Shown here: piece by piece, positions 2,880 through 18,725 of the stretch | How the letters are laid out: each line of letters begins with the position of its first letter | Position numbering within the stretch: the first letter of the stretch is position 1 | Source: a virus | IMG/VR virus record: IMGVR_UViG_3300027805_000099 | Span: 1-20,914 of that record | Length of the DNA stretch: 20,914 nt | Strand: one strand, 5' to 3' | The notes under the pieces: generated by a model | Database searches by the model: none | Told to the model about the DNA's origin: nothing | Seen by the model: only the letters and a program-made list of their open reading frames with translations | Translations under genes and position numbers: made by a program

Positions 2880-3297
2880 ACCTTTCTGCCAGTTCCTTTA
2901 CGACATTCACGACCGACCGGCTAAGGATGTGGTCTATCAGTTCTTACAGAAGTGGTACACCTCGGACATCCATCCCGACCAACAGCCCAACGAATACGGC
3001 CGGTATGATTTCATAATGTACAAGGGAGACGATGAGGTAAAGGTCGAGGTTCAACGTAAGCTCGGATGGACGGAACGGGGCAAGTGGCAACGTAACTTCA
3101 ACAGCATCGACATCGAATACCGTAAGCGTAAGAGTGAGGCGGATATCTTCTGTATCGTTAATGCCACGATGGATACGGTCGCCATCATCCGCCGTGATGT
3201 AGTTATGAGTAGTCCTGTCACTGAAAAGGATACCCGTTACGGTCGTGAGCCTTTCTTTAATATACCTATCTATAAAGCCTATATCTCTATCTTATGA
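2866..3297 (+). CDS. Putative PD-(D/E)XK-like nuclease
   Basis: The 143-residue product contains YDF (D48) followed by the strand-like VKVEVQRK, giving D48-X12-E61-x-Q63-x-K65. This resembles the catalytic core of PD-(D/E)XK-fold nucleases, in which an acidic residue precedes E-x-K/Q. Downstream are a basic segment (YRKRK) and a hydrophobic strand (ADIFCIVN) that fit the fold's later core. Short proteins of this fold include resolvases, repair nucleases and restriction enzymes. Lying beside terminase, a DNA-branch-cleaning or packaging-related role is possible, but substrate and activity are inference. It may alternatively be an inactive structural relative. Its stop overlaps the next start by 4 nt (ATGA). 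Confidence 0.5.
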   Translation: MIRTKPFCQFLYDIHDRPAKDVVYQFLQKWYTSDIHPDQQPNEYGRYDFIMYKGDDEVKVEVQRKLGWTERGKWQRNFNSIDIEYRKRKSEADIFCIVNATMDTVAIIRRDVVMSSPVTEKDTRYGREPFFNIPIYKAYISIL

Positions 3298-4082
3298 AAA
3301 TCCTAGTTAAGTGGCCAACACGGTCACGGCCTAATAAGTTCCTTAAGACTCTGTTCTTATATCAATCGCTACGCACTACGGAAACAGTTGACTTCCTGAT
3401 TACCATCGATAGCGATGACCATAGGATGTTACAGCGTGATGTGGTCAATACCTTAAGGCAGTGGGGCAACCTACGCTATGAGATTATCGAGCCATGTGGT
3501 AAGATAGGTGCTATCAATAGCGGCGTGGAAGCTATCAGTAGGCAGTACGACATCATCGTACTGGCATCGGATGACATGATACCGGCGGTCAAGGGGTGGG
3601 ATAAGCGGATAGCCGATGACATGGAGCGGCTGTATCCTGATACGGATGGGGTGCTGTGGTATAACGATGGGTATGTGGGAGACCAGCTCAACACCCTTTG
3701 CATCTTGGGTACCAAGTACTACCGCCGATTCAACTATATCTATAACCCTGACTACAAGGCTCTTTGGTGCGATAACGAGTTCATGGAAGTGGCTAACCTA
3801 TTGGGCAAACAGACTTACTTCCAAGATGTTATCATCCGTCATGAGCATCCTATTCACGGTCACGGACGGCAGGATAACCTAAACCATAGAGACAATCATT
3901 TGTATTATGAAGACAAACGAACCTACGACCTTAGAAAGTCCAACAACTTCGGAATCACAGCCATTACTAAGCCTATTGATACCGACCTTAGTGAACCGAA
4001 AGGAGCTGTTCAGCAACCTACTGAAGGAAATAAACCGACAGATAGCAAACCAAAACGCAGAAGGAAAGGTACAAGTGTGTAG
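3294..4082 (+). CDS. GT-A-type glycosyltransferase
   Basis: The 262-residue product starts like a GT-A-fold (family 2-like) transferase: a first strand KILVKWPTRSRP, then LITIDSDD (35-42), a G-x-N-S helix (GAINSGVEA) and a candidate metal/nucleotide-sugar site ASDDM (91-95). A later WCDNEF acidic motif (158-163) and HEHP (183-186) fit the acceptor side. Such enzymes transfer a sugar from a nucleotide donor. The recognisable domain ends near residue 220 (about base 3953). The remaining tail, rich in Lys, Thr and Pro, lies within the 176-nt overlap with the next glycosyltransferase gene in another frame, and may carry little constraint. The target is unknown, perhaps a virion protein or host glycan. 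Confidence 0.8.
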   Translation: MKILVKWPTRSRPNKFLKTLFLYQSLRTTETVDFLITIDSDDHRMLQRDVVNTLRQWGNLRYEIIEPCGKIGAINSGVEAISRQYDIIVLASDDMIPAVKGWDKRIADDMERLYPDTDGVLWYNDGYVGDQLNTLCILGTKYYRRFNYIYNPDYKALWCDNEFMEVANLLGKQTYFQDVIIRHEHPIHGHGRQDNLNHRDNHLYYEDKRTYDLRKSNNFGITAITKPIDTDLSEPKGAVQQPTEGNKPTDSKPKRRRKGTSV

Positions 4083-4539
4083 CCTGTCGGATGATAGGCA
4101 GATGAGTATCGGGGAGAAGCGTAACCGACTGATGGCGATGGCTACGGGTAAGTACATCGCCTTCATCGATGATGACGACATGATACACCGTGACTACCTA
4201 CGGCACGTCCTCAAGGCTTTAGACCTCGACCCCGATGTGGTAGGGCTTGTTGGTGAGATAACCATGCACTCAGTTGGCAGGGGAACGGTACGCAGGAAGT
4301 TCTACCATACCGTAGCCAATAACAGTTACCGGACATCGGCAAGGGGTTACGAGCGACCGCCTAATCATCTGAACCCGATGAGAAAGAAAATAGCCGAAAA
4401 GTTTGAGTTTATCGACAAAAGCCATGGAGAGGACACGGACTGGGCAATGAGAATCTGCAAGACAAAAGCCTTAAAGTCAGAGGTTATGGTCAATAATATA
4501 CTTTATTTCTACAACTTCAATCCCAATAAAAAGTATTAA
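3907..4539 (+). CDS. Glycosyltransferase family 2-like protein
   Basis: The 210-residue product has a GT2-like core: LLSLLIPTLVNR (20-31), SIGEKRNRL (67-75), then GKYIAFIDDDDM (81-92) holding the DXD-type metal site, and HGEDTDWAM (173-181) with the likely catalytic ED pair. It overlaps the preceding glycosyltransferase by 176 nt in the +1 frame. The ATG at 3907 is used because an in-frame TAA lies at 3880-3882 and the conserved domain begins around base 3964. The first 19 residues are Thr/Ser/Pro-rich and not family-like. It could be expressed by re-initiation, or fused to its neighbour by a +1 frameshift. The sugar donor and acceptor cannot be read from sequence. Confidence 0.82.
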   Translation: MKTNEPTTLESPTTSESQPLLSLLIPTLVNRKELFSNLLKEINRQIANQNAEGKVQVCSLSDDRQMSIGEKRNRLMAMATGKYIAFIDDDDMIHRDYLRHVLKALDLDPDVVGLVGEITMHSVGRGTVRRKFYHTVANNSYRTSARGYERPPNHLNPMRKKIAEKFEFIDKSHGEDTDWAMRICKTKALKSEVMVNNILYFYNFNPNKKY

Positions 4540-4544
4540 CTTTG
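4537..4544 (+). promoter_or_regulatory. Bacteroidota-type -7 box TAACTTTG
   Basis: TAACTTTG matches TAnnTTTG and straddles the end of the glycosyltransferase gene, ending five bases before the ATG at 4550. No clear -33 box is visible upstream. The following CTTTGTA string also appears at the capsid-operon promoter (16674-16680). If used, the transcript would be leaderless or nearly so and would serve the tail module. Confidence 0.45.
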
Positions 4545-4549
4545 TAGGT

Positions 4550-4906
4550 ATGAGCATCAATATCTGTGACTTATGCTATGAGGTGACCGTCCCTGCCTGT
4601 CAGGATACGTACACTTTTGATACTGGACTAACGGCGGCCACTCCTTATACCATGATTTTAGAGGACGTTAACGGCAACCAGTACAATTACATCAGCACCC
4701 CGGCTGGCGGTTCGGGGGTATGGACACTCAATACATCCTACTTTCCTGACGGGATGTTCAACCAATGGTCGGGCAGTTATAGGATTACGTTTAGTGCCGA
4801 TACCAGTGGCGATGCTACCGAAGGGGATGAGGAGCTTACAATCGATGGCAGTAGTTACTTCTGCATCGTTATGAAGATGGTCAAATCTACATTGGTATAC
4901 GATTGA
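4550..4906 (+). CDS. Small beta-rich putative virion protein
   Basis: The 118-residue product has alternating short hydrophobic and polar stretches (TPYTMILEDVNGNQYNYIS, then SGSYRITFSAD) typical of a beta-sandwich, and few helices. Its N-terminus has a Cys cluster, CDLC at residues 6-9 and C17, resembling cysteine motifs in other structural proteins of this window. It is the first gene after the glycosyltransferases and just upstream of the tail chaperone, so a tail or decoration role is likely. I do not recognise a named family. A possible promoter box sits directly before the start. Confidence 0.6.
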   Translation: MSINICDLCYEVTVPACQDTYTFDTGLTAATPYTMILEDVNGNQYNYISTPAGGSGVWTLNTSYFPDGMFNQWSGSYRITFSADTSGDATEGDEELTIDGSSYFCIVMKMVKSTLVYD

Positions 4907-11011: not shown

Positions 11012-12962
11012 TCAGCCCCTTACTTGGCGTACCGACTGGCCTACGGATAGCGACTGCAAAACGCCATACGATAGGGCTTGTACACTTTATACCACCAACG
11101 ACTACCTGATGTCGCAATGGAAGCAGACTCCTTGTGGTGCAGGTACTAATGAAATTTGCGACCCTACTTTCCCTAATACAAATACCGAGTTAGTCACCAA
11201 CGGTAGCTTTACCACTAACTCAACAGGATGGACACTAGTGGGATGCACACGGGATGCCACTAACAAGCGCATTCAGTTTGCCTCACAAAGTGAGTCCCTT
11301 GAACAGACAGGGGTAGTGAGTGCCGGGGTGACCTATGACGTTACCTTTACCATCGGTGGCAATAACCGCACTTCATTAAAGCTATACCTTGGCGGTACGC
11401 TTCACCCTACCTACTTCAACGCACCGGGTACCTATCGGGTAACCATGGTTGCCGGTGGTGCTAACACCAAGATACGTTTTGAAAACTACCTACTGGCACC
11501 TGCCTATAACGGATGGATAGATGATATCAGCGTTAAGCAGAACTCATGGAGTGGCGGTTGTTGGAGTACGGCTAACCCTACGCTATGGCTGAATAATGGT
11601 GACGGAACGGTAACCAAAGTACCGGGAACGGCTTCCGACCTTATCAGTTCGGTAAACTCTTTGCCTTTAGGGGCTTACATCCGTATGGGTATATCGGTAA
11701 CTAACCAAACGGCAGGTTCTTTAGAGATTGTCACCGATAGCACCAAGGGAACTATAACAGCCAACGGAACGTATTACTTCTATGATAGTGACTACAATAA
11801 CGATAACGTAACCTATCGGGCAGATGCTGACTTTGACGGTACTATCTCTAACGTATCGGTAATCGTTTACTCCAACTACTTCAACGTCATCCTGCGAGAT
11901 ACCAAAGGAGCTACGGACTACGACCTTAGCAGCTATCTGACTTACGATGAAGACTGGGTGACGCTGAACTATCAACTTGGTAGTGTTGACCCCGGCTGTT
12001 ATGAGCTTTGTTTCTATGATGCTTGTGGATTTAATGTCAACGAAGAACTTATTTCTGATACTGGCTTCACTCAATCTATCGGCGGAACTGATTGGCCTTC
12101 ATCCGTGGCCACATCGGGAAGTATAGCTATCACGGGCGGTGAGCTTGTAGTAACGCAATCGGGCATTCCTTTGACGGCTTATGTGGAGGCTAACCCAACA
12201 ACATGGCGTACCTTTGCAGGAAACACTTTGACGGTTATTGACTACTCCTTTACTACGGATGTGGTTCAGTATACGGGTTTTACCCGTGTTCAGATATACG
12301 ATACTAGCAACGGTCAAGAATTAACCTTGGTAACAAGTCCTGTCGCTACTACTCTCTATGAAGGTACTGTAAGTTGGCCTTATCCTATTACCAATGCTTC
12401 AAACCTTGCTATACGTATCCAGTCCACTGGAACTAACGGAACGAAGATAGAGCTAACGGATATGTCGCTTATCGTTCAGGCTTATGTGCCGGGACAGATG
12501 GATGAGTACTGCTCCAACTGCGTAGAGATTACCGATGATGCAGGATGCTCGGTATGGGTAGGCGGTACTAACGGCTCGGATGCTTTCGGCTTTCACTTCG
12601 CTAATAGCTTCCAAGTAGGGGCAAGGGTTCGGGCTATGCTTATCAATCCTAAATATCAAGGAGAAAATAATCGATATGCAGATGCCAACGGAAAGTACAC
12701 GGTCACAAGAGCAAATACGGGAAAGGTCTACACGCTCTTTATCGATTATACGGATGAGCATACTCACGATTGGTTACGGGTGGCCGTACTGTCTGACACT
12801 GTACGAATCGGATCATTCACCAACACCAACAACTACTACACCGCCCTTGACGGTGGATATGAGCCAGAGTGGCCGGACAACCTAGGCAACTGGCCATCGG
12901 CTCAAGCCCGTATCGATGTTCAGAAGCAAACGGACGAACTATATAATAATAATGCAGGATAA
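10989..12962 (+). CDS. Modular tail fibre/adhesin-like protein
   Basis: The 657-residue product starts 23 nt inside the preceding gene. After a Cys-containing N-terminal segment come at least two beta-sandwich modules resembling galactose-binding or CBM4/9-type domains. The first spans about 67-187 (ELVTNGSFTTNSTGW to GWIDDISVKQ), the second about 353-490 (NEELISDTGFTQS onward). A C-terminal part (about 505-657) has CSNC and an HDWLRVAVLSD block, possibly an attachment or structural domain. Such modules bind glycans, so this is a good candidate for receptor binding. A glycosyltransferase gene follows immediately, with its recommended start 11 nt inside this gene. No chaperone or endosialidase motif is visible. 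Confidence 0.65.
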   Translation: MAIQFIDNQPLTWRTDWPTDSDCKTPYDRACTLYTTNDYLMSQWKQTPCGAGTNEICDPTFPNTNTELVTNGSFTTNSTGWTLVGCTRDATNKRIQFASQSESLEQTGVVSAGVTYDVTFTIGGNNRTSLKLYLGGTLHPTYFNAPGTYRVTMVAGGANTKIRFENYLLAPAYNGWIDDISVKQNSWSGGCWSTANPTLWLNNGDGTVTKVPGTASDLISSVNSLPLGAYIRMGISVTNQTAGSLEIVTDSTKGTITANGTYYFYDSDYNNDNVTYRADADFDGTISNVSVIVYSNYFNVILRDTKGATDYDLSSYLTYDEDWVTLNYQLGSVDPGCYELCFYDACGFNVNEELISDTGFTQSIGGTDWPSSVATSGSIAITGGELVVTQSGIPLTAYVEANPTTWRTFAGNTLTVIDYSFTTDVVQYTGFTRVQIYDTSNGQELTLVTSPVATTLYEGTVSWPYPITNASNLAIRIQSTGTNGTKIELTDMSLIVQAYVPGQMDEYCSNCVEITDDAGCSVWVGGTNGSDAFGFHFANSFQVGARVRAMLINPKYQGENNRYADANGKYTVTRANTGKVYTLFIDYTDEHTHDWLRVAVLSDTVRIGSFTNTNNYYTALDGGYEPEWPDNLGNWPSAQARIDVQKQTDELYNNNAG

Positions 12963-13797
12963 AAGAGGCATACTCTTATTGGCTACGGGTCACCCGTATT
13001 ACGCTCACATGGCGGTCAACTTGCTCGTTAGCTTACGTAGCTTCGAGCCTGAACTGCCCGTAGCTATCCTGCATGACGGTCAAGGTTTCAAGTTATTGGA
13101 AGGATGGCAACAGGACTACTTCACCACAGCCATCGAGCTACCTGCAAAGCTCACGGGTGGTGACCCTTATCGGGTTAAGTTGCATCTGGATGAATTGACA
13201 CCTTTTGAACAGACCATGTTCATGGATGTGGATATGCTTTGGAACAACTTCCATAGTCCGATGGAGTTGCTGTCGGAATTGGAGGGAATCGAGTTTACCA
13301 TGATTAACCGTGGTCGAGTGTCATCGGCTGACAGCACGTTGAGCCGTTGGGTGAACCTATCCGAAGTGGGAGACGCTTACAAGCTCGATGAGTTCTACGA
13401 TATCAGCAGTGAGATAATCTATTTTGAAGGAACTCCTAAAGTATTTGCCGAAGCACGTAAGGTCTACAATAAGCCAAAGGTCAAGGTATCGGCTTTCGGC
13501 TCTGGACTGCCTGACGAGGCATTCTTTATGATAGCCATCGAAAAGCTAGGCATCAAGCTCCATCAGTCCCCGTGGGAACCATCGTACTGGGAGCCACGGT
13601 ACTTCCCGAAACAGCATAACCGTAGTCACGTTACCGGGTTTTATGCTTTATCAGTTGGCGGTGCGTTTACTTCCAACCACATCAAGAAGATATACGACAT
13701 CCTTATCAGTCACTATTACAGCTCTTTGGGTATCGCTTCCAAGCCTTACCAATTACAAAATAAAAGCCGAATAATTAAAGAACGTAGGAAAATCTAA
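12952..13797 (+). CDS. Glycosyltransferase (GT-A, GT8-like)
   Basis: The product is 281 residues from the ATG at 12952. It begins with a Rossmann-like strand GILLLATGHPYY (6-17) and the AVNLLVSLRS helix, then has the metal-binding DVD in FMDVDMLW (90-97). Further on are GSGLPDEAFF and a Trp-rich WEPSYWEPRY segment. This pattern fits GT-A enzymes related to family 8. The frame extends upstream to an ATG at 12916, but those 12 residues lie within the fibre gene and precede the fold, so I choose 12952. The stop overlaps the portal start (TAATG). Between the fibre and portal genes, the likely target is a virion or host-surface glycan; donor sugar unknown. Confidence 0.8.
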   Translation: MQDKRGILLLATGHPYYAHMAVNLLVSLRSFEPELPVAILHDGQGFKLLEGWQQDYFTTAIELPAKLTGGDPYRVKLHLDELTPFEQTMFMDVDMLWNNFHSPMELLSELEGIEFTMINRGRVSSADSTLSRWVNLSEVGDAYKLDEFYDISSEIIYFEGTPKVFAEARKVYNKPKVKVSAFGSGLPDEAFFMIAIEKLGIKLHQSPWEPSYWEPRYFPKQHNRSHVTGFYALSVGGAFTSNHIKKIYDILISHYYSSLGIASKPYQLQNKSRIIKERRKI

Positions 13798-15548
13798 TGG
13801 CTATCATCGACATCAGCCAATACCACACAGGTGGTAAACGTCATCAGTTTTATGCTGAAACGGTTAATAAGTATCATTCTATTAAGACACATGCCCTTGG
13901 TGAGTTCCCCAAGGAGCTGATCTCTGAACGCCGTCCCGGTGAATCGGATACCATCAAAAGGTATCGGGAAAAGATTTACGTTCCCAAGACTCAAGCCACG
14001 GTTACCAAGATATTCAATAGCCTTCAGAAGATACGAAAGTCTGCTGACTATCTTATTAGCTTTAACGAGACGGTAGTACCGCCAATGGTTATCCGTGAGG
14101 AGCGACCATCGTATTACTTGACGGATGAGTTTCCTAAGTACAGCTCTTTGGATAACTGGTTTTGGTCGGTGGCTTTCAATCAGTACCTGATGGATGCTAA
14201 TGCCGTCATCATGGTCGTACCGATTAACGTGGTCAAGGAGTCTAACGAATACTTTAAGCCTTACCCTATCCTTTTCAATAGTCCGCAGGTTCTTGACTTT
14301 GTTTACGAGCAGTACGGAGTATTTAAGTCCATCGAGGAAAGCACCTATCGTAGCGGCAATCGCAACTACAAAGGGGCGGTATACTATTCTGTTGACCGTG
14401 AGTCCATTGTCAAGTATGAGCAGATAAACGCTAAGGGAGACTTTTCAGCTACCGAGTTCCTTCATGGATTAGGTTACGCTCCTATCTTTAAGACCTTTGG
14501 TGTTATCGTTCAGGATGGCGTGGATGATGCGCTGTATTCTAGCCGTATCGCTCCTATCGTTCCTTCCCTTAACGAAGCGGCACGGGAATGGAGTGACCTA
14601 CAGGCCGAAGTGGTTCAGCATATTCACTCAACGATGTGGGCTATACAAGGTAAGGAGTGTAATACCTGCCATGGTGTTGGTGTACTGCCTAAAGCAGGAG
14701 CCAGTCCTATCGAGTGCCGTGACTGTAATGGTAAGGGCTTCTTTCCGTTCAATCCTTATGAACACATCACGGTTAAACAGGCATCTTTGGGAGACCCTTC
14801 TACTCCTATCCCACCTGCCGGGTATCTTACCAAGCCTATCGACATTGCTAAACTGCAAGACCAACGGGTTCATGACCATATCTACCATGCCCTGTCATCG
14901 CTAAATATGGAGTTCCTTGCCGCTGTTCCTTTGTCACAATCGGGGACGGCTAAAGAGGTTGACCGTGCCGAGCTGAATAACTTCGTTTATTCCATCGCTG
15001 AAGATTGCGTCCGTATCTTGGATGAGATTGCTGAAATGGTTATCGACTACCGCTATGGTGGTATCGTTCCTGACTATGAAAGCCGTGAGCAGTTACGCCC
15101 TAGCATCACCGTTCCTGAGAAGTACGACATCCTTCCGGAAGGTTATTTGGTGGATGAGATTGCCAAACTACGTACAAGCAAGGTTAGCCCTTTGATTGTA
15201 AACGCCGCTGAGTTGGAGTATGCCAGTAAGAAGTTCAATACCAATAAGAAGATAAAGGAACGCCTTCAGGATATCTACGCTCTTGACCCGTTGGCAGGTA
15301 TGAACATCGAAGAGATATTGGTAGCGGTTTCTAATAACGCCATCAGTAAAAAGACCTATATCATTCACAGTAATATCCGTGAGTTCGTGGATATGGCGCA
15401 TGAAGATGACCCTGAGTTCTATCAGTTACCGATGATGGATAAAAAGGCTGTCATCAGTGCTATGGCTGATGCGTGGATTATGGAAAGCCGTCCAAGAAAC
15501 ATTATGGATGATACCGAAGGAATGGGTAACATCAGCATCGGAGTTTAA
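13797..15548 (+). CDS. Portal protein with embedded zinc-ribbon-like segment
   Basis: The 583-residue product has the length and helical, acidic character of siphovirus portals, with LNEAAREWSDLQAEVVQHIH (259-278) and LSSLNMEFLAAVPLSQSG (366-383) resembling the stem/wing helices and the conserved loop before the long helix. The portal forms the dodecameric ring through which terminase pumps DNA. Unusually, residues 288-314 hold two CxxCxGxG motifs (CNTCHGVG and CRDCNGKG, Cys 288, 291, 307, 310) that could bind one zinc. The ATG overlaps the upstream stop, and the MuF-like gene starts in its stop codon (TAATG), as is common for portal-MuF pairs. No fold was tested. Confidence 0.85.
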   Translation: MAIIDISQYHTGGKRHQFYAETVNKYHSIKTHALGEFPKELISERRPGESDTIKRYREKIYVPKTQATVTKIFNSLQKIRKSADYLISFNETVVPPMVIREERPSYYLTDEFPKYSSLDNWFWSVAFNQYLMDANAVIMVVPINVVKESNEYFKPYPILFNSPQVLDFVYEQYGVFKSIEESTYRSGNRNYKGAVYYSVDRESIVKYEQINAKGDFSATEFLHGLGYAPIFKTFGVIVQDGVDDALYSSRIAPIVPSLNEAAREWSDLQAEVVQHIHSTMWAIQGKECNTCHGVGVLPKAGASPIECRDCNGKGFFPFNPYEHITVKQASLGDPSTPIPPAGYLTKPIDIAKLQDQRVHDHIYHALSSLNMEFLAAVPLSQSGTAKEVDRAELNNFVYSIAEDCVRILDEIAEMVIDYRYGGIVPDYESREQLRPSITVPEKYDILPEGYLVDEIAKLRTSKVSPLIVNAAELEYASKKFNTNKKIKERLQDIYALDPLAGMNIEEILVAVSNNAISKKTYIIHSNIREFVDMAHEDDPEFYQLPMMDKKAVISAMADAWIMESRPRNIMDDTEGMGNISIGV

Positions 15549-16450
15549 TGGCGTTAGACGACTTAAATAAGATTGTCCGTACCCTTGACGGCTCTGTGGA
15601 AGAGTTCGTCAAGGACTTGCCACTATCGGAGCAAAAGATATGGCAGAAGGTTCTTTCCTTAACCCGTCAGCTTGACGTTGACGGCATGGGTAAGGTGACC
15701 AATAACGTCAATAACCTGCGTATCCTTAATGACATCAATAAGGAAATAAACGGCATCGTTCTTACCGATGAGTATAAGCAAAAGGTCGAGAAGTTTACCA
15801 ATGTCTTTGCTGACTTGGAGACGCTTAATAACAAGTACCTGTCATCCGTATTTACGCAGTTCAAGCCGTCCCGTGTTCTAAAGGAGTTGACAAAGGTGTC
15901 AATAGACATCACCATCGACCAGTTGCAGGAAACGGGGGTAGCTTCATCACTGGCATCGGAGCTGAAGGATATCCTAAAGCAGAACATCACTACGGGTGGT
16001 AACTATGCTGATATGACTGAACAGCTAAGAGCTAGTATCCTTGGAGACCCTCAAACATCGGGTGGTCTTACCCGTTACGCCCGTACATTCACTACGGATG
16101 CCATCAATCAGTATTCAGCGACCTATACCAAGACGGTATCCTCTGACTTGGGAGCGGTATGGTTCAGATATACCGGCTCTAATATGGAGACGACTCGACC
16201 TTTCTGCGACCATCTCACTAAAAAGGATGGCGGTTACTTTCATGTCAACGAGATACCGGGCTTTCTAAAAGGGCAAGTAGGAGACCAGAAAGTACCTATC
16301 TATCCAAAGTACAATCTGCCACAGGGAATGAATGAGAATACCACGGCAGATAACTTCTTGGTGTTACGTGGTGGATACAACTGTGGACATCAGATATTCC
16401 CCGTCTCAAAAGCATCCGTTCCACCTTCGCTACGTTCAAGGTTCGAGTAG
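15548..16450 (+). CDS. MuF-like minor head protein
   Basis: The 300-residue product has a helical N-terminal half and a C-terminal MuF-type (phage Mu gpF / SPP1 gp7) core: WFRYTGSNMETTRPFCDHL (205-223), with C220 and H222, then LRGGYNCGHQIFP (273-285) with C279 and H281. These spaced Cys/His pairs are the family hallmark and may bind metal. Such proteins sit inside the prohead near the portal and take part in head morphogenesis or are ejected with DNA. The gene directly follows the portal with a 1-nt overlap, the classical pairing. Its last 61 nt overlap the end of a convergent minus-strand gene. Confidence 0.85.
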   Translation: MALDDLNKIVRTLDGSVEEFVKDLPLSEQKIWQKVLSLTRQLDVDGMGKVTNNVNNLRILNDINKEINGIVLTDEYKQKVEKFTNVFADLETLNNKYLSSVFTQFKPSRVLKELTKVSIDITIDQLQETGVASSLASELKDILKQNITTGGNYADMTEQLRASILGDPQTSGGLTRYARTFTTDAINQYSATYTKTVSSDLGAVWFRYTGSNMETTRPFCDHLTKKDGGYFHVNEIPGFLKGQVGDQKVPIYPKYNLPQGMNENTTADNFLVLRGGYNCGHQIFPVSKASVPPSLRSRFE

Positions 16451-16611
16451 TTCCATTCACGGATAATCCTATCGATAATCTGTTGGCGACCTCTGAACTT
16501 TCCTTGCTTTAAAAGTTTGGATTGCTCTTCAAAGATAATAGCGGCTACTTCATCGCACATCTTATAGGTGAAGGCATGACAATCGTAAGTGCTTCGGTTC
16601 TTTAGTTTCAT
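16390..16611 (-). CDS. Ribbon-helix-helix-like small DNA-binding protein
   Basis: This is the only minus-strand frame that I accept. It fills the largest internal gap in the rightward cluster. From the ATG at 16611 it encodes 73 residues: a short strand (HAFTYKM, 12-18), helix DEVAAIIFEEQSKLLKQG (20-37), then RGRQQIIDRIIREW (40-53). The spacing and the I-I-x-x-I-I-x-x-W pattern resemble MetJ/Arc ribbon-helix-helix repressors. A frame extension to TTG at 16629 would run through a perfect dyad, so the ATG is preferred. A -7 box on this strand and the dyad lie just before the start, as expected of an autoregulator. Family membership is inference. The last 61 nt overlap the MuF-like gene tail. 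Confidence 0.6.
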   Translation of the reverse strand: MKLKNRSTYDCHAFTYKMCDEVAAIIFEEQSKLLKQGKFRGRQQIIDRIIREWNYSNLERSEGGTDAFETGNI

Positions 16612-16612
16612 G

Positions 16613-16629
16613 TTGTATAGGTTATACAA
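16613..16629. promoter_or_regulatory. Dyad operator TTGTATA-GGT-TATACAA
   Basis: A perfect 7-bp inverted repeat with a 3-bp spacer lies between the minus-strand -7 box, which it overlaps by 3 bp, and the minus-strand ATG at 16611. The size and symmetry are those of a dimeric repressor site. It also lies about 35 bp upstream of the plus-strand promoter box for the scaffold-capsid genes. Binding by the adjacent ribbon-helix-helix-like product is inference. Confidence 0.6.
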
Positions 16630-16634
16630 ATATA
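16627..16634 (-). promoter_or_regulatory. -7 box TATATTTG for the minus-strand gene
   Basis: On the minus strand this reads TATATTTG, a perfect TAnnTTTG match, about 15 nt before the ATG at 16611. Transcription would start within the dyad. No strong -33 TTTG is seen at the expected distance. Confidence 0.45.
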
Positions 16635-16663
16635 AGTTTCTAAAGTGTTATTTCCTACCATTT

Positions 16664-16678
16664 TAGGTTTGACCTTTG
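16664..16678 (+). promoter_or_regulatory. Promoter of the scaffold-capsid operon
   Basis: TAGGTTTG (16664-16671) is a perfect TAnnTTTG box, and GACCTTTG (16671-16678) is a near match overlapping it. The scaffold ATG follows at 16699. The region lies between divergent genes in the largest internal gap, which adds weight. GTTTC at 16636-16640 is a weak -33 candidate. Confidence 0.5.
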
Positions 16679-16698
16679 TAACTTAAACTGGCTAACTT

Positions 16699-17595
16699 AT
16701 GGCAACTACCGCAGGTGAATTTATCACAAAACTGGCTACAATGGCAGGGCTGTCTACATCAGACCCGGACATCGTAAGCATCCTATCCAATTCCGAATTT
16801 AGTAACTATCGTTTGCCCGAAACGGTTTACTCCAAAATCAACAGCTCTCTGTTGACAGTGGACTCCGCACGGAATAACGAGAACTTACGCCGCCACTACC
16901 ACGCTGAAATCCTCAACGGCCTCGACAATAACATCGAGTCCATGTTGGAGCGTTTCGGTATCGATGGTGAAGTGGCTGAAACGGTACGTCAAGAAAAGAA
17001 GACGACCGAAAAGTATAACCGTCTCATCGAGCGGTTAAATGACCTTCACGCTAAAAAGGCTCAAAGCACTACCAAGAGTGACAAAGCCGAGTTAGAGAAT
17101 GAAATCTCTAAGCTCAACAATCAGGTGAAGGACTTGAACACCAAACTGCAAACAGCACCCGTAGAACGTGACCAGTTCTGGACAGAAAAGCTCAAGACAA
17201 AAGCTGTCCAAAACCTACTCACATCCTACAACTACGCAGGGGAAAAAGACATTCCGAAAGATGTTCTAATTGAGACAGCATCCGTTCTGCTTAACCGTAA
17301 GCTCAACGAGTCCAAAGTCCGGTTAGAGTATTCTGCCGATAACGATAATATCAGTCTGAAAACCGAGTCAGGCATGGACTTCTACAAGGATAATACGCCC
17401 ATATCCTTCAAGTCGTTTGCCGACCAAGTGTTAGCAGAAAGTAAGCTCTTAGCTATCCCGGCCTCTCAAGGGGCAACTCAACCCGCCGCTTCTTCACAGC
17501 CTATGCCTTCTCAAACAATCGTACAAGGCAACGGGCGTGTCCAAGATGCTTCCAGATACCTTGCGGCACTGGATGACATTGCATCAGGACGTTAA
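16699..17595 (+). CDS. Capsid scaffold-like protein
   Basis: The 298-residue product is charged and helical, with a strong heptad-type coiled coil at about residues 96-152 (EKYNRLIERLNDL, then AELENEISKLNNQVKDLNTKL) and a Gln/Ala/Ser/Pro-rich flexible tail. It lies 14 nt before the major capsid gene. This composition and position are typical of scaffolding proteins, which assemble the prohead shell and then leave. No protease active site is recognised in it or nearby, so if removal is proteolytic the protease lies elsewhere. It is the first gene after the likely capsid promoter. Alternative: a minor head protein with coiled coil. Confidence 0.75.
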   Translation: MATTAGEFITKLATMAGLSTSDPDIVSILSNSEFSNYRLPETVYSKINSSLLTVDSARNNENLRRHYHAEILNGLDNNIESMLERFGIDGEVAETVRQEKKTTEKYNRLIERLNDLHAKKAQSTTKSDKAELENEISKLNNQVKDLNTKLQTAPVERDQFWTEKLKTKAVQNLLTSYNYAGEKDIPKDVLIETASVLLNRKLNESKVRLEYSADNDNISLKTESGMDFYKDNTPISFKSFADQVLAESKLLAIPASQGATQPAASSQPMPSQTIVQGNGRVQDASRYLAALDDIASGR

Positions 17596-17609: not shown

Positions 17610-18725
17610 ATGGCAAACGGTCTTGCTCCATATTTATTGAACGACATGAAGTCGTTAGTCGGCGGTGCCTATCCCGGCCACAAAGTCGACCTTAAGGGTT
17701 TCCTCGCTATGCTTACCTCTGGTAACGGCGCTAACCCTATCCAAACTTCTAACCTTGCAGGTCACAAGAAAGAAGTACGTTTCTGGTATCGTAACCGTAA
17801 CACTAAGCCGCAAACTGATACGTCAGCATCTTGCGACAATGTGTTAACTCCTGCTCGTAAAGAGTACACGGTATCCGTTGGAAACACCCGTCAAATTGCA
17901 TGGCACCTGCCTGATGAGTTGGTAGCTGCTTACATGGATGAGGCTTCTGCTCGAGTAAACATCCCCGGCGGTCCTATTAATGGCGCTTCTGCTGAACTGT
18001 TGGACATCATCCTTTCCGGTATGAATGGTATCTTGGAAGGTATGAATGATGACCTGCTCGGTTTGGTTACATGGGGTAAGAACAAGGTTAGCGGCTCTAA
18101 CGCTGCAGTTACCTTGAATATCTCTGCTGATAGCGGTGTTCAGAAATTGACCACTGGCTTCCCTAAACTGTTGGGAGACTACAAGAAGAACAACCTCTCT
18201 GGTGTTCCTAACATCGTTGGTGCTGGTCTGTTCTACTCTTATATGTTGTCACAGCCTTTCAAGAGTGCTGATCAGTCAGGTATGAACAGCATGATGGCGT
18301 CTAACGGCGTTAACTTCTTCGCTGACCAAGACTTCGCTGATACCGTAGGTGCTGATAACATCGGTGTATTCGAGCCGGGTTCTATCCAACTCGTTGAGTA
18401 CCTTGAGTACACTGGTTTCAAAGCTGGTGTTAAGCCGGGTTCTTCTGAGTTTGGTGTTATCGCTCTTCCTGCTGTTGCTTCTGATGGCTCTATACTGCCT
18501 GTACTGGCGGATTGGCAGTTGAAGTACATTGACTGCCCCACGACCCTCACCGATGCCTATTCAGGTTCTACGGCTACCTATCAGAAAGGTTGGAGCTTCA
18601 TTATGAAGAAAGACTTCGGTCTGTTCCAATTACCTTCTGACAGCTACCGTCAGGAAGATGGTAACTATTCAGTTAACGGCGCATTGCGTTACAACGTAAC
18701 GAACGCTTGCGACACTTGTTCCTAA
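17610..18725 (+). CDS. Major capsid protein
   Basis: The 371-residue product follows the scaffold-like gene. Its codon choice looks strongly selected (frequent CGT, GGT, GCT, AAC), as expected for the most abundant virion protein. Sequence features fit an HK97-type shell protein: an N-terminal region (about residues 1-80) that may form the arm and loop, a central helical part (ELLDIILSGMNGILEGMNDD, about 129-148), and a strand-rich C-terminal part (GWSFIMKKDFGLFQL). It ends in CDTC plus one Ser, a Cys motif shared with other virion proteins here. No maturation cleavage site can be called. The fold assignment is inferred from context and length. Confidence 0.85.
   Translation: MANGLAPYLLNDMKSLVGGAYPGHKVDLKGFLAMLTSGNGANPIQTSNLAGHKKEVRFWYRNRNTKPQTDTSASCDNVLTPARKEYTVSVGNTRQIAWHLPDELVAAYMDEASARVNIPGGPINGASAELLDIILSGMNGILEGMNDDLLGLVTWGKNKVSGSNAAVTLNISADSGVQKLTTGFPKLLGDYKKNNLSGVPNIVGAGLFYSYMLSQPFKSADQSGMNSMMASNGVNFFADQDFADTVGADNIGVFEPGSIQLVEYLEYTGFKAGVKPGSSEFGVIALPAVASDGSILPVLADWQLKYIDCPTTLTDAYSGSTATYQKGWSFIMKKDFGLFQLPSDSYRQEDGNYSVNGALRYNVTNACDTCS

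Follow-up and report, generated by a model that had tools for sequence, protein, structure and literature searches.

A conserved small minus-strand gene with an operator-like dyad at the boundary of the capsid genes in a group of uncultured phages

The window, by which we mean the whole stretch of DNA analysed, is a virus fragment from IMG/VR, 20.9 kb long, with the gene order terminase, tail, portal, MuF-like, scaffold-like and capsid. The plus strand carries all main genes of the window. Between the MuF-like and scaffold-like genes, a gene for a 73-amino-acid (aa) protein is placed on the minus strand (Table 1). Every other opposite-strand ORF of 50 aa or longer in the window is covered by a longer ORF on the main strand, in agreement with the preliminary description, which had accepted a single minus-strand gene at this junction. 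The MuF-like gene gave PHROG matches to head maturation and morphogenesis. The scaffold and capsid labels are based on position and weak matches: the scaffold-like gene weakly matched Phage_scaffold and head scaffolding entries (Pfam and PHROG), and the putative major capsid gene gave no Pfam match and one weak, irrelevant PHROG match.

Table 1 Positions of the genes and sequence elements around the minus-strand gene in the window.
Feature	Position	Strand	Remark
MuF-like head morphogenesis gene	15548..16450	+	Convergent with the 73-aa gene; Phage_Mu_F E=0.0026 (below cut-off)
73-aa gene (P0001), probable small DNA-binding regulator	16390..16611	-	ATG at 16611; functional core residues 8-53
3′-end overlap of the 73-aa gene with the MuF-like gene	16390..16450	-	61 bp, both 3′ ends
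Dyad TTGTATAGGTTATACAA, putative operator	16613..16629		Centre on the predicted minus start (~16622)
Minus -7 box TATATTTG	16634-16627	-	Full match to the Bacteroidota consensus TAnnTTTG
Interval between the two -7 elements	16635..16674		40 bp; length fixed, sequence free
Divergent element GACCTTTGTA (G-N4-TTTG-YA)	16671..16680	+	Conserved; probable weak -7 box, scaffold/capsid promoter
Scaffold-like coiled-coil gene	16699..17595	+	First gene 3′ of the divergent element; assigned by position
Putative major capsid gene	17610..18725	+	Assigned by position and conservation only

Relatives (contigs G001-G009 and the distant L067) were found by searches with the 73-aa protein and its neighbours. 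The contig of G004 ends inside the 73-aa gene, and the window itself is G000 in the contig counts. Bases 2-109 of the G002 contig carry part of the capsid gene in inverted orientation, probably an assembly artefact. Sequence searches for relatives of the 73-aa protein found none in isolated phages, plasmids or bacterial genomes, and a host or culture is therefore not assignable. The sole matches of the MuF searches there were Pelagibacter phages, and these were distant (25-28% over part of the protein). The phages are probably an uncultured group of Bacteroidota, an assignment made from the TAnnTTTG boxes.

All nine clade relatives in which the junction is present (MuF identity 57-98%) have the 73-aa gene at an unchanged position on the same strand, and its 3′ end overlaps MuF in every clade member open to judgement. 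A near-invariant core, MCDxVAxI...EQ...GKFRGRxxIIDRIIREW, is present in all but G009. In L067 (45% portal identity), a 58-aa gene without MuF overlap lies at the same junction and on the same strand; it aligns to the core almost without gaps and shares Cys11, Cys19, Ile25, Glu29 and Ile50 with the 73-aa protein. Because the identity is only 19%, homology of the two genes is regarded as probable and not as proven. The clade of L061 and L068, which a tree places as sister, has no minus gene at the junction.

Comparisons with the window gave dN values of 0.02-0.44 and dS values from 0.29 to saturated, and the differences from close relatives fall mostly on third codon positions. Between the window and G003, the differences by codon position are 2/2/14, with dN of 0.05 and dS of 1.8. 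Purifying selection on the gene is clear from these comparisons. The last 61 bp of the ORF are antisense to MuF and the C-terminal conservation there follows MuF, as would be seen in a spurious ORF that is open by chance or as MuF antisense; conservation from about residue 54 onward was discounted because it is antisense to MuF codons. Residues 1-53, however, lie outside MuF in a part with no open plus frame, and they carry both the conservation and the third-position bias. Selection in this part rules out a spurious or antisense-only ORF, a reading to which we attach a negligible probability. Judged by its conservation and substitution pattern, the minus ORF is a real gene.

The AlphaFold prediction with the family alignment has an extended segment at residues 12-18 and helices at residues 20-36 and 42-62, with a mean pLDDT of 70. 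The core reaches a pLDDT of 86-90, and the confidence of these monomer predictions is mainly in the helices; the strand-helix-helix pattern given in the preliminary description is thus reproduced at moderate confidence only. The putative strand shows the hydrophobic alternation F14/Y16/M18 with Lys or Arg mostly at position 17, as in ribbon-helix-helix (RHH) proteins. For a profile comparison, nine RHH proteins were used, each verified by its own Pfam match. The profiles align in register with a score of 12.8 against a shuffled mean of 8.5; this score was reached by 4 of 200 column shuffles, and the hhalign probability was below 4%. No significant match to the 73-aa product was found in Pfam, PHROG, NCBIfam, PDB sequences or Foldseek. 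More specifically, Pfam gave no RHH family for any member at E values up to 10, PF01402 and PF03869 had no match in the record of the window, and no RHH protein was among the Foldseek matches. The sole Pfam match of the L067 homologue was TraM, at E=0.049, below the cut-off, and this is the strongest pointer to a known family. The check by profile and structure prediction gives an RHH-like build at moderate confidence and no significant match to a known family or fold. An RHH fold is plausible for the product, and from its predicted build the fitting label is RHH-like; it should not be filed as RHH.

On the promoter side, the minus -7 box of the preliminary description is confirmed, as is the perfect dyad overlapping it. 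The -7 box covers positions -12 to -5 (PMC9723704), and the minus start is predicted near 16622 with a leader of ~11 nt and the dyad centred on the start. The window shows no recognisable -33 motif, and none could be identified in Flavobacterium johnsoniae (PMC7366714). Searches for a sigma-70 promoter or an intrinsic terminator found neither, including after the 73-aa gene. As for RNA elements, no Rfam family reached threshold (one chance-level match had E=0.88), and the folding is not unusual (z -1.2). In another part of the window (4537-4552), the full -7 consensus TAACTTTG has its 3′ end 5 bp ahead of an ATG, as also in G001, G003 and G004, which suggests leaderless or very short-leader late transcripts.

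The dyad is a perfect 7+3+7 inverted repeat, TTGTATA-GGT-TATACAA. By itself it proves nothing, because perfect palindromes with arms of at least 7 and spacers of at most 6 are equally frequent in shuffled sequence (10 in the window and 10.3 in mononucleotide shuffles). The motif TTGTR-N7-YACAA occurs exactly once per genome in the window, G001, G002, G005, G006 and G009 (six contigs of three lineages), always directly after the minus -7 box and at the predicted start. The dyad of G008 has one mismatch to the motif, and the corresponding position of L067 is occupied by TTTGTAATTATTACAAA, a perfect palindrome of 8+1+8. In simulated DNA with the same composition, a dyad of this type arose next to a -7 box with a probability of ~0.001. 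The sole other instance of the motif among all contigs is GC-rich and lies in G010, which is without the gene, and no further dyad copies forming a regulon were found in any contig. Both the minus frame and the dyad, on whose conservation the preliminary description had made its proposal depend, recur in relatives. The pairing of gene and dyad is nevertheless incomplete, since G003 and G007 keep the gene without the dyad; in G007, a direct repeat of the half-site takes its place.

A divergent -7 box toward scaffold and capsid had also been proposed. A conserved element is indeed present on that side (GACCTTTGTA, with its TTTGYA part at 16675), but the sequence that best fits the proposed box, TAGGTTTG at 16664-16671, is not the conserved one and is kept in the closest relatives only. 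From the minus box (CAAATATA in plus reading) to TTTGYA, the distance is exactly 40 bp in the window, G001 and G005-G009. This group comprises five lineages, between which the identity of the interval is 23-60%, mostly 23-45%. Near-saturated substitution without net indel argues for a constraint on spacing. By comparison, no two lineages agree in how far TTTGYA lies from the scaffold ATG (21-26). Exceptions to the spacing are G003, where the minus box is shifted, and L067 (39 vs 44 bp, start to start). In the gene-less sister phages L061 and L068, a full-consensus TATATTTG precedes the genes that lead up to the scaffold gene, whereas the window clade has a degenerate GAnnTTTG on the scaffold/capsid side. 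By comparison with these two related cases, the degenerate box of the window clade would fit dependence on an activator. The plus start is predicted at 16683 and the dyad centre ~62 bp upstream of it, which matches the distance at which CRP acts as a class I activator. A 10-bp direct repeat, AAACTGGCTA, is present at 16685-16694 in the scaffold leader and at 16729-16738 in the early scaffold gene.

The 73-aa gene appears alone in the window, G001-G003, G007 and G008. In other relatives, small additional minus ORFs lie between the promoter and the gene: one in G005, two in G006 and three in G009. In L067, the 58-aa gene comes first, and its stop overlaps the start of a second small ORF. Those of the extra ORFs included in the family scan gave no matches. 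The description as a lone minus gene thus holds for the window but not for some relatives, in which it is one of 2-4 cassette genes. The 73-aa gene is the constant member of this cassette, and the other members vary and are unrelated.

Among known regulators, the locus resembles the P22 Arc/Mnt-type RHH repressors (PF03869) in that a small phage protein with a predicted strand-helix-helix build is accompanied by a palindrome on a promoter, and the F-x-hydrophobic-K/R-hydrophobic strand is in register with Arc. Unlike Arc and Mnt, the 73-aa product has no significant sequence or fold match, and its gene lies among late structural genes behind a Bacteroidota-type promoter and not in an immunity region. 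The TraM match of the L067 homologue covers the N-terminal DNA-binding part of this protein of conjugative plasmids (PF05261), but it is below the cut-off, and the phage locus has no oriT or conjugation context. The position within a structural cluster, which had been called unusual, is uncommon but precedented, because a single small reverse-strand bS21 gene within the terminase, portal and capsid genes was published for Bacteroidetes phages (PMC9723584). That gene is likewise lone, small, on the reverse strand of a structural cluster and from the same host phylum; bS21 is a ribosomal protein, however, and the 73-aa product has no similarity to it, with no S21 family among the Pfam or NCBIfam matches. 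In the pLS20 switch, the operator of an autoregulator lies upon overlapping divergent promoters (PMC4207663). We use it as a working analogue for the divergent promoters with an operator-like site upon them; it differs in controlling plasmid conjugation genes, in its regulator and in DNA looping between two operators, where the window clade has at most one operator-like site per genome.

We favour, with somewhat better than even confidence, an autoregulated, RHH-like small DNA-binding protein that is bound at the dyad and probably also tunes scaffold/capsid transcription. The parts computed here are the gene, its conservation and selection, the conserved dyad that is single in each genome where it is present, and the 40-bp spacing. 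The gene would be transcribed on the minus strand from the host-type promoter TATATTTG, and its small product would bind DNA, probably as a dimer and most likely with a strand-helix-helix build. The most likely target is the dyad at the start of the gene's own transcript, where the protein would repress its own promoter; from the position of the dyad, we infer that the bound protein would block initiation and thereby limit its own synthesis. A conserved inverted repeat on the gene's own promoter, the mark of an autoregulator, is found. The minus promoter and dyad stand back-to-back with the scaffold/capsid -7 element at a fixed distance, and therefore their occupancies should interact and coupling to capsid transcription is plausible. 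An effect on scaffold and capsid is probable on this ground, and its sign is not readable from the sequence. Against a regulator stand the varied promoter spacing in L067 and G003, the dyad-less G003 and G007, and the unrelated cassette genes. It is also conceivable, if unlikely, that the protein regulates capsid dose: dyad-bound protein would activate the weak GAnnTTTG promoter and shut off its own, and the resulting self-limiting pulse would give the synthesis of head proteins a timing distinct from that of the tail and portal genes.

The same locus could instead be an accessory, moron-like minus cassette with its own promoter, the product of which acts elsewhere, for example on the host early in infection; the dyad would then serve another regulator or keep the cassette quiet, and the capsid genes would be uninvolved. 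We regard this as possible but doubtful. It is in line with a cassette of one to four small genes, none of a known family, with the full-consensus host-type promoter and with the reverse-strand bS21 of a structural cluster, which acts in translation and not in transcription (PMC9723584). However, the 73-aa gene is constant in all clade members while the others vary, the fixed spacing of the promoter pair is unexpected for an independent insert, and a single dyad per genome, at this promoter, suits a local autoregulator. The marks of a moron (variable presence, own promoter with terminator, differing composition) are not found as a set: the gene has its own promoter and variable extra neighbours, but its composition is close to that of the adjoining genes and no terminator is seen.

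Promoter geometry and antisense RNA could also matter more than the protein, if the back-to-back polymerase sites are mutually exclusive and minus transcripts run antisense into MuF. A 40-bp spacing fixed over free sequence would agree with this, as would the 3′ overlap across the judgeable clade members with no terminator after the gene; strong selection on the protein sequence, the different spacing and absent MuF overlap of L067, and a dyad left unexplained make it quite improbable. Many antitoxins are autoregulated RHH proteins, and the overlapping stop and start of the two L067 genes would suit a cassette that pairs an RHH antitoxin with a small toxin. No partner on the strand is present in the window, G001-G003, G007 or G008, though, the extra genes of G005, G006 and G009 precede the 73-aa gene and differ between lineages, and no family match was found for them; we consider an antitoxin very improbable.

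Among the titles and abstracts returned by searches of openly licensed papers, none concerned this protein family, its operator-like dyad or the spacing of the promoters, and the combination appears undescribed. To our knowledge, late-gene timing in Bacteroidota phages is poorly described. The locus is a compact, testable module, with an unmatched protein family, one operator-like site and two divergent elements, placed where the tail and portal genes meet the capsid genes. Should the autoregulator proposed here act on the capsid promoter, it would reveal how phages of this kind adjust head proteins relative to tail proteins.

Some further observations were made on the genes of the window and its relatives. 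Portal residues 288-315 (window 14658-14741) contain a clade-wide DnaJ-like zinc-binding motif, CNTCHGVG...CRDCNGKG (Pfam DnaJ_CXXCXGXG E=0.0018, below cut-off). Three genes among the late genes, within 3294-4539 and 12916-13797, appear glycosyltransferase-like by eye. Where the window has a 111-aa gene ahead of the terminase, L030 (G001) has a 414-aa gene at 14391-15635, the start of which is ParB-like by eye, indicating a gene replacement adjoining the packaging genes. The MuF-like protein of L061 (7718-9424) has a C-terminal extension (568 aa vs 300) that is ADP-ribosyltransferase-like by eye, comparable to MuF polymorphic toxins.
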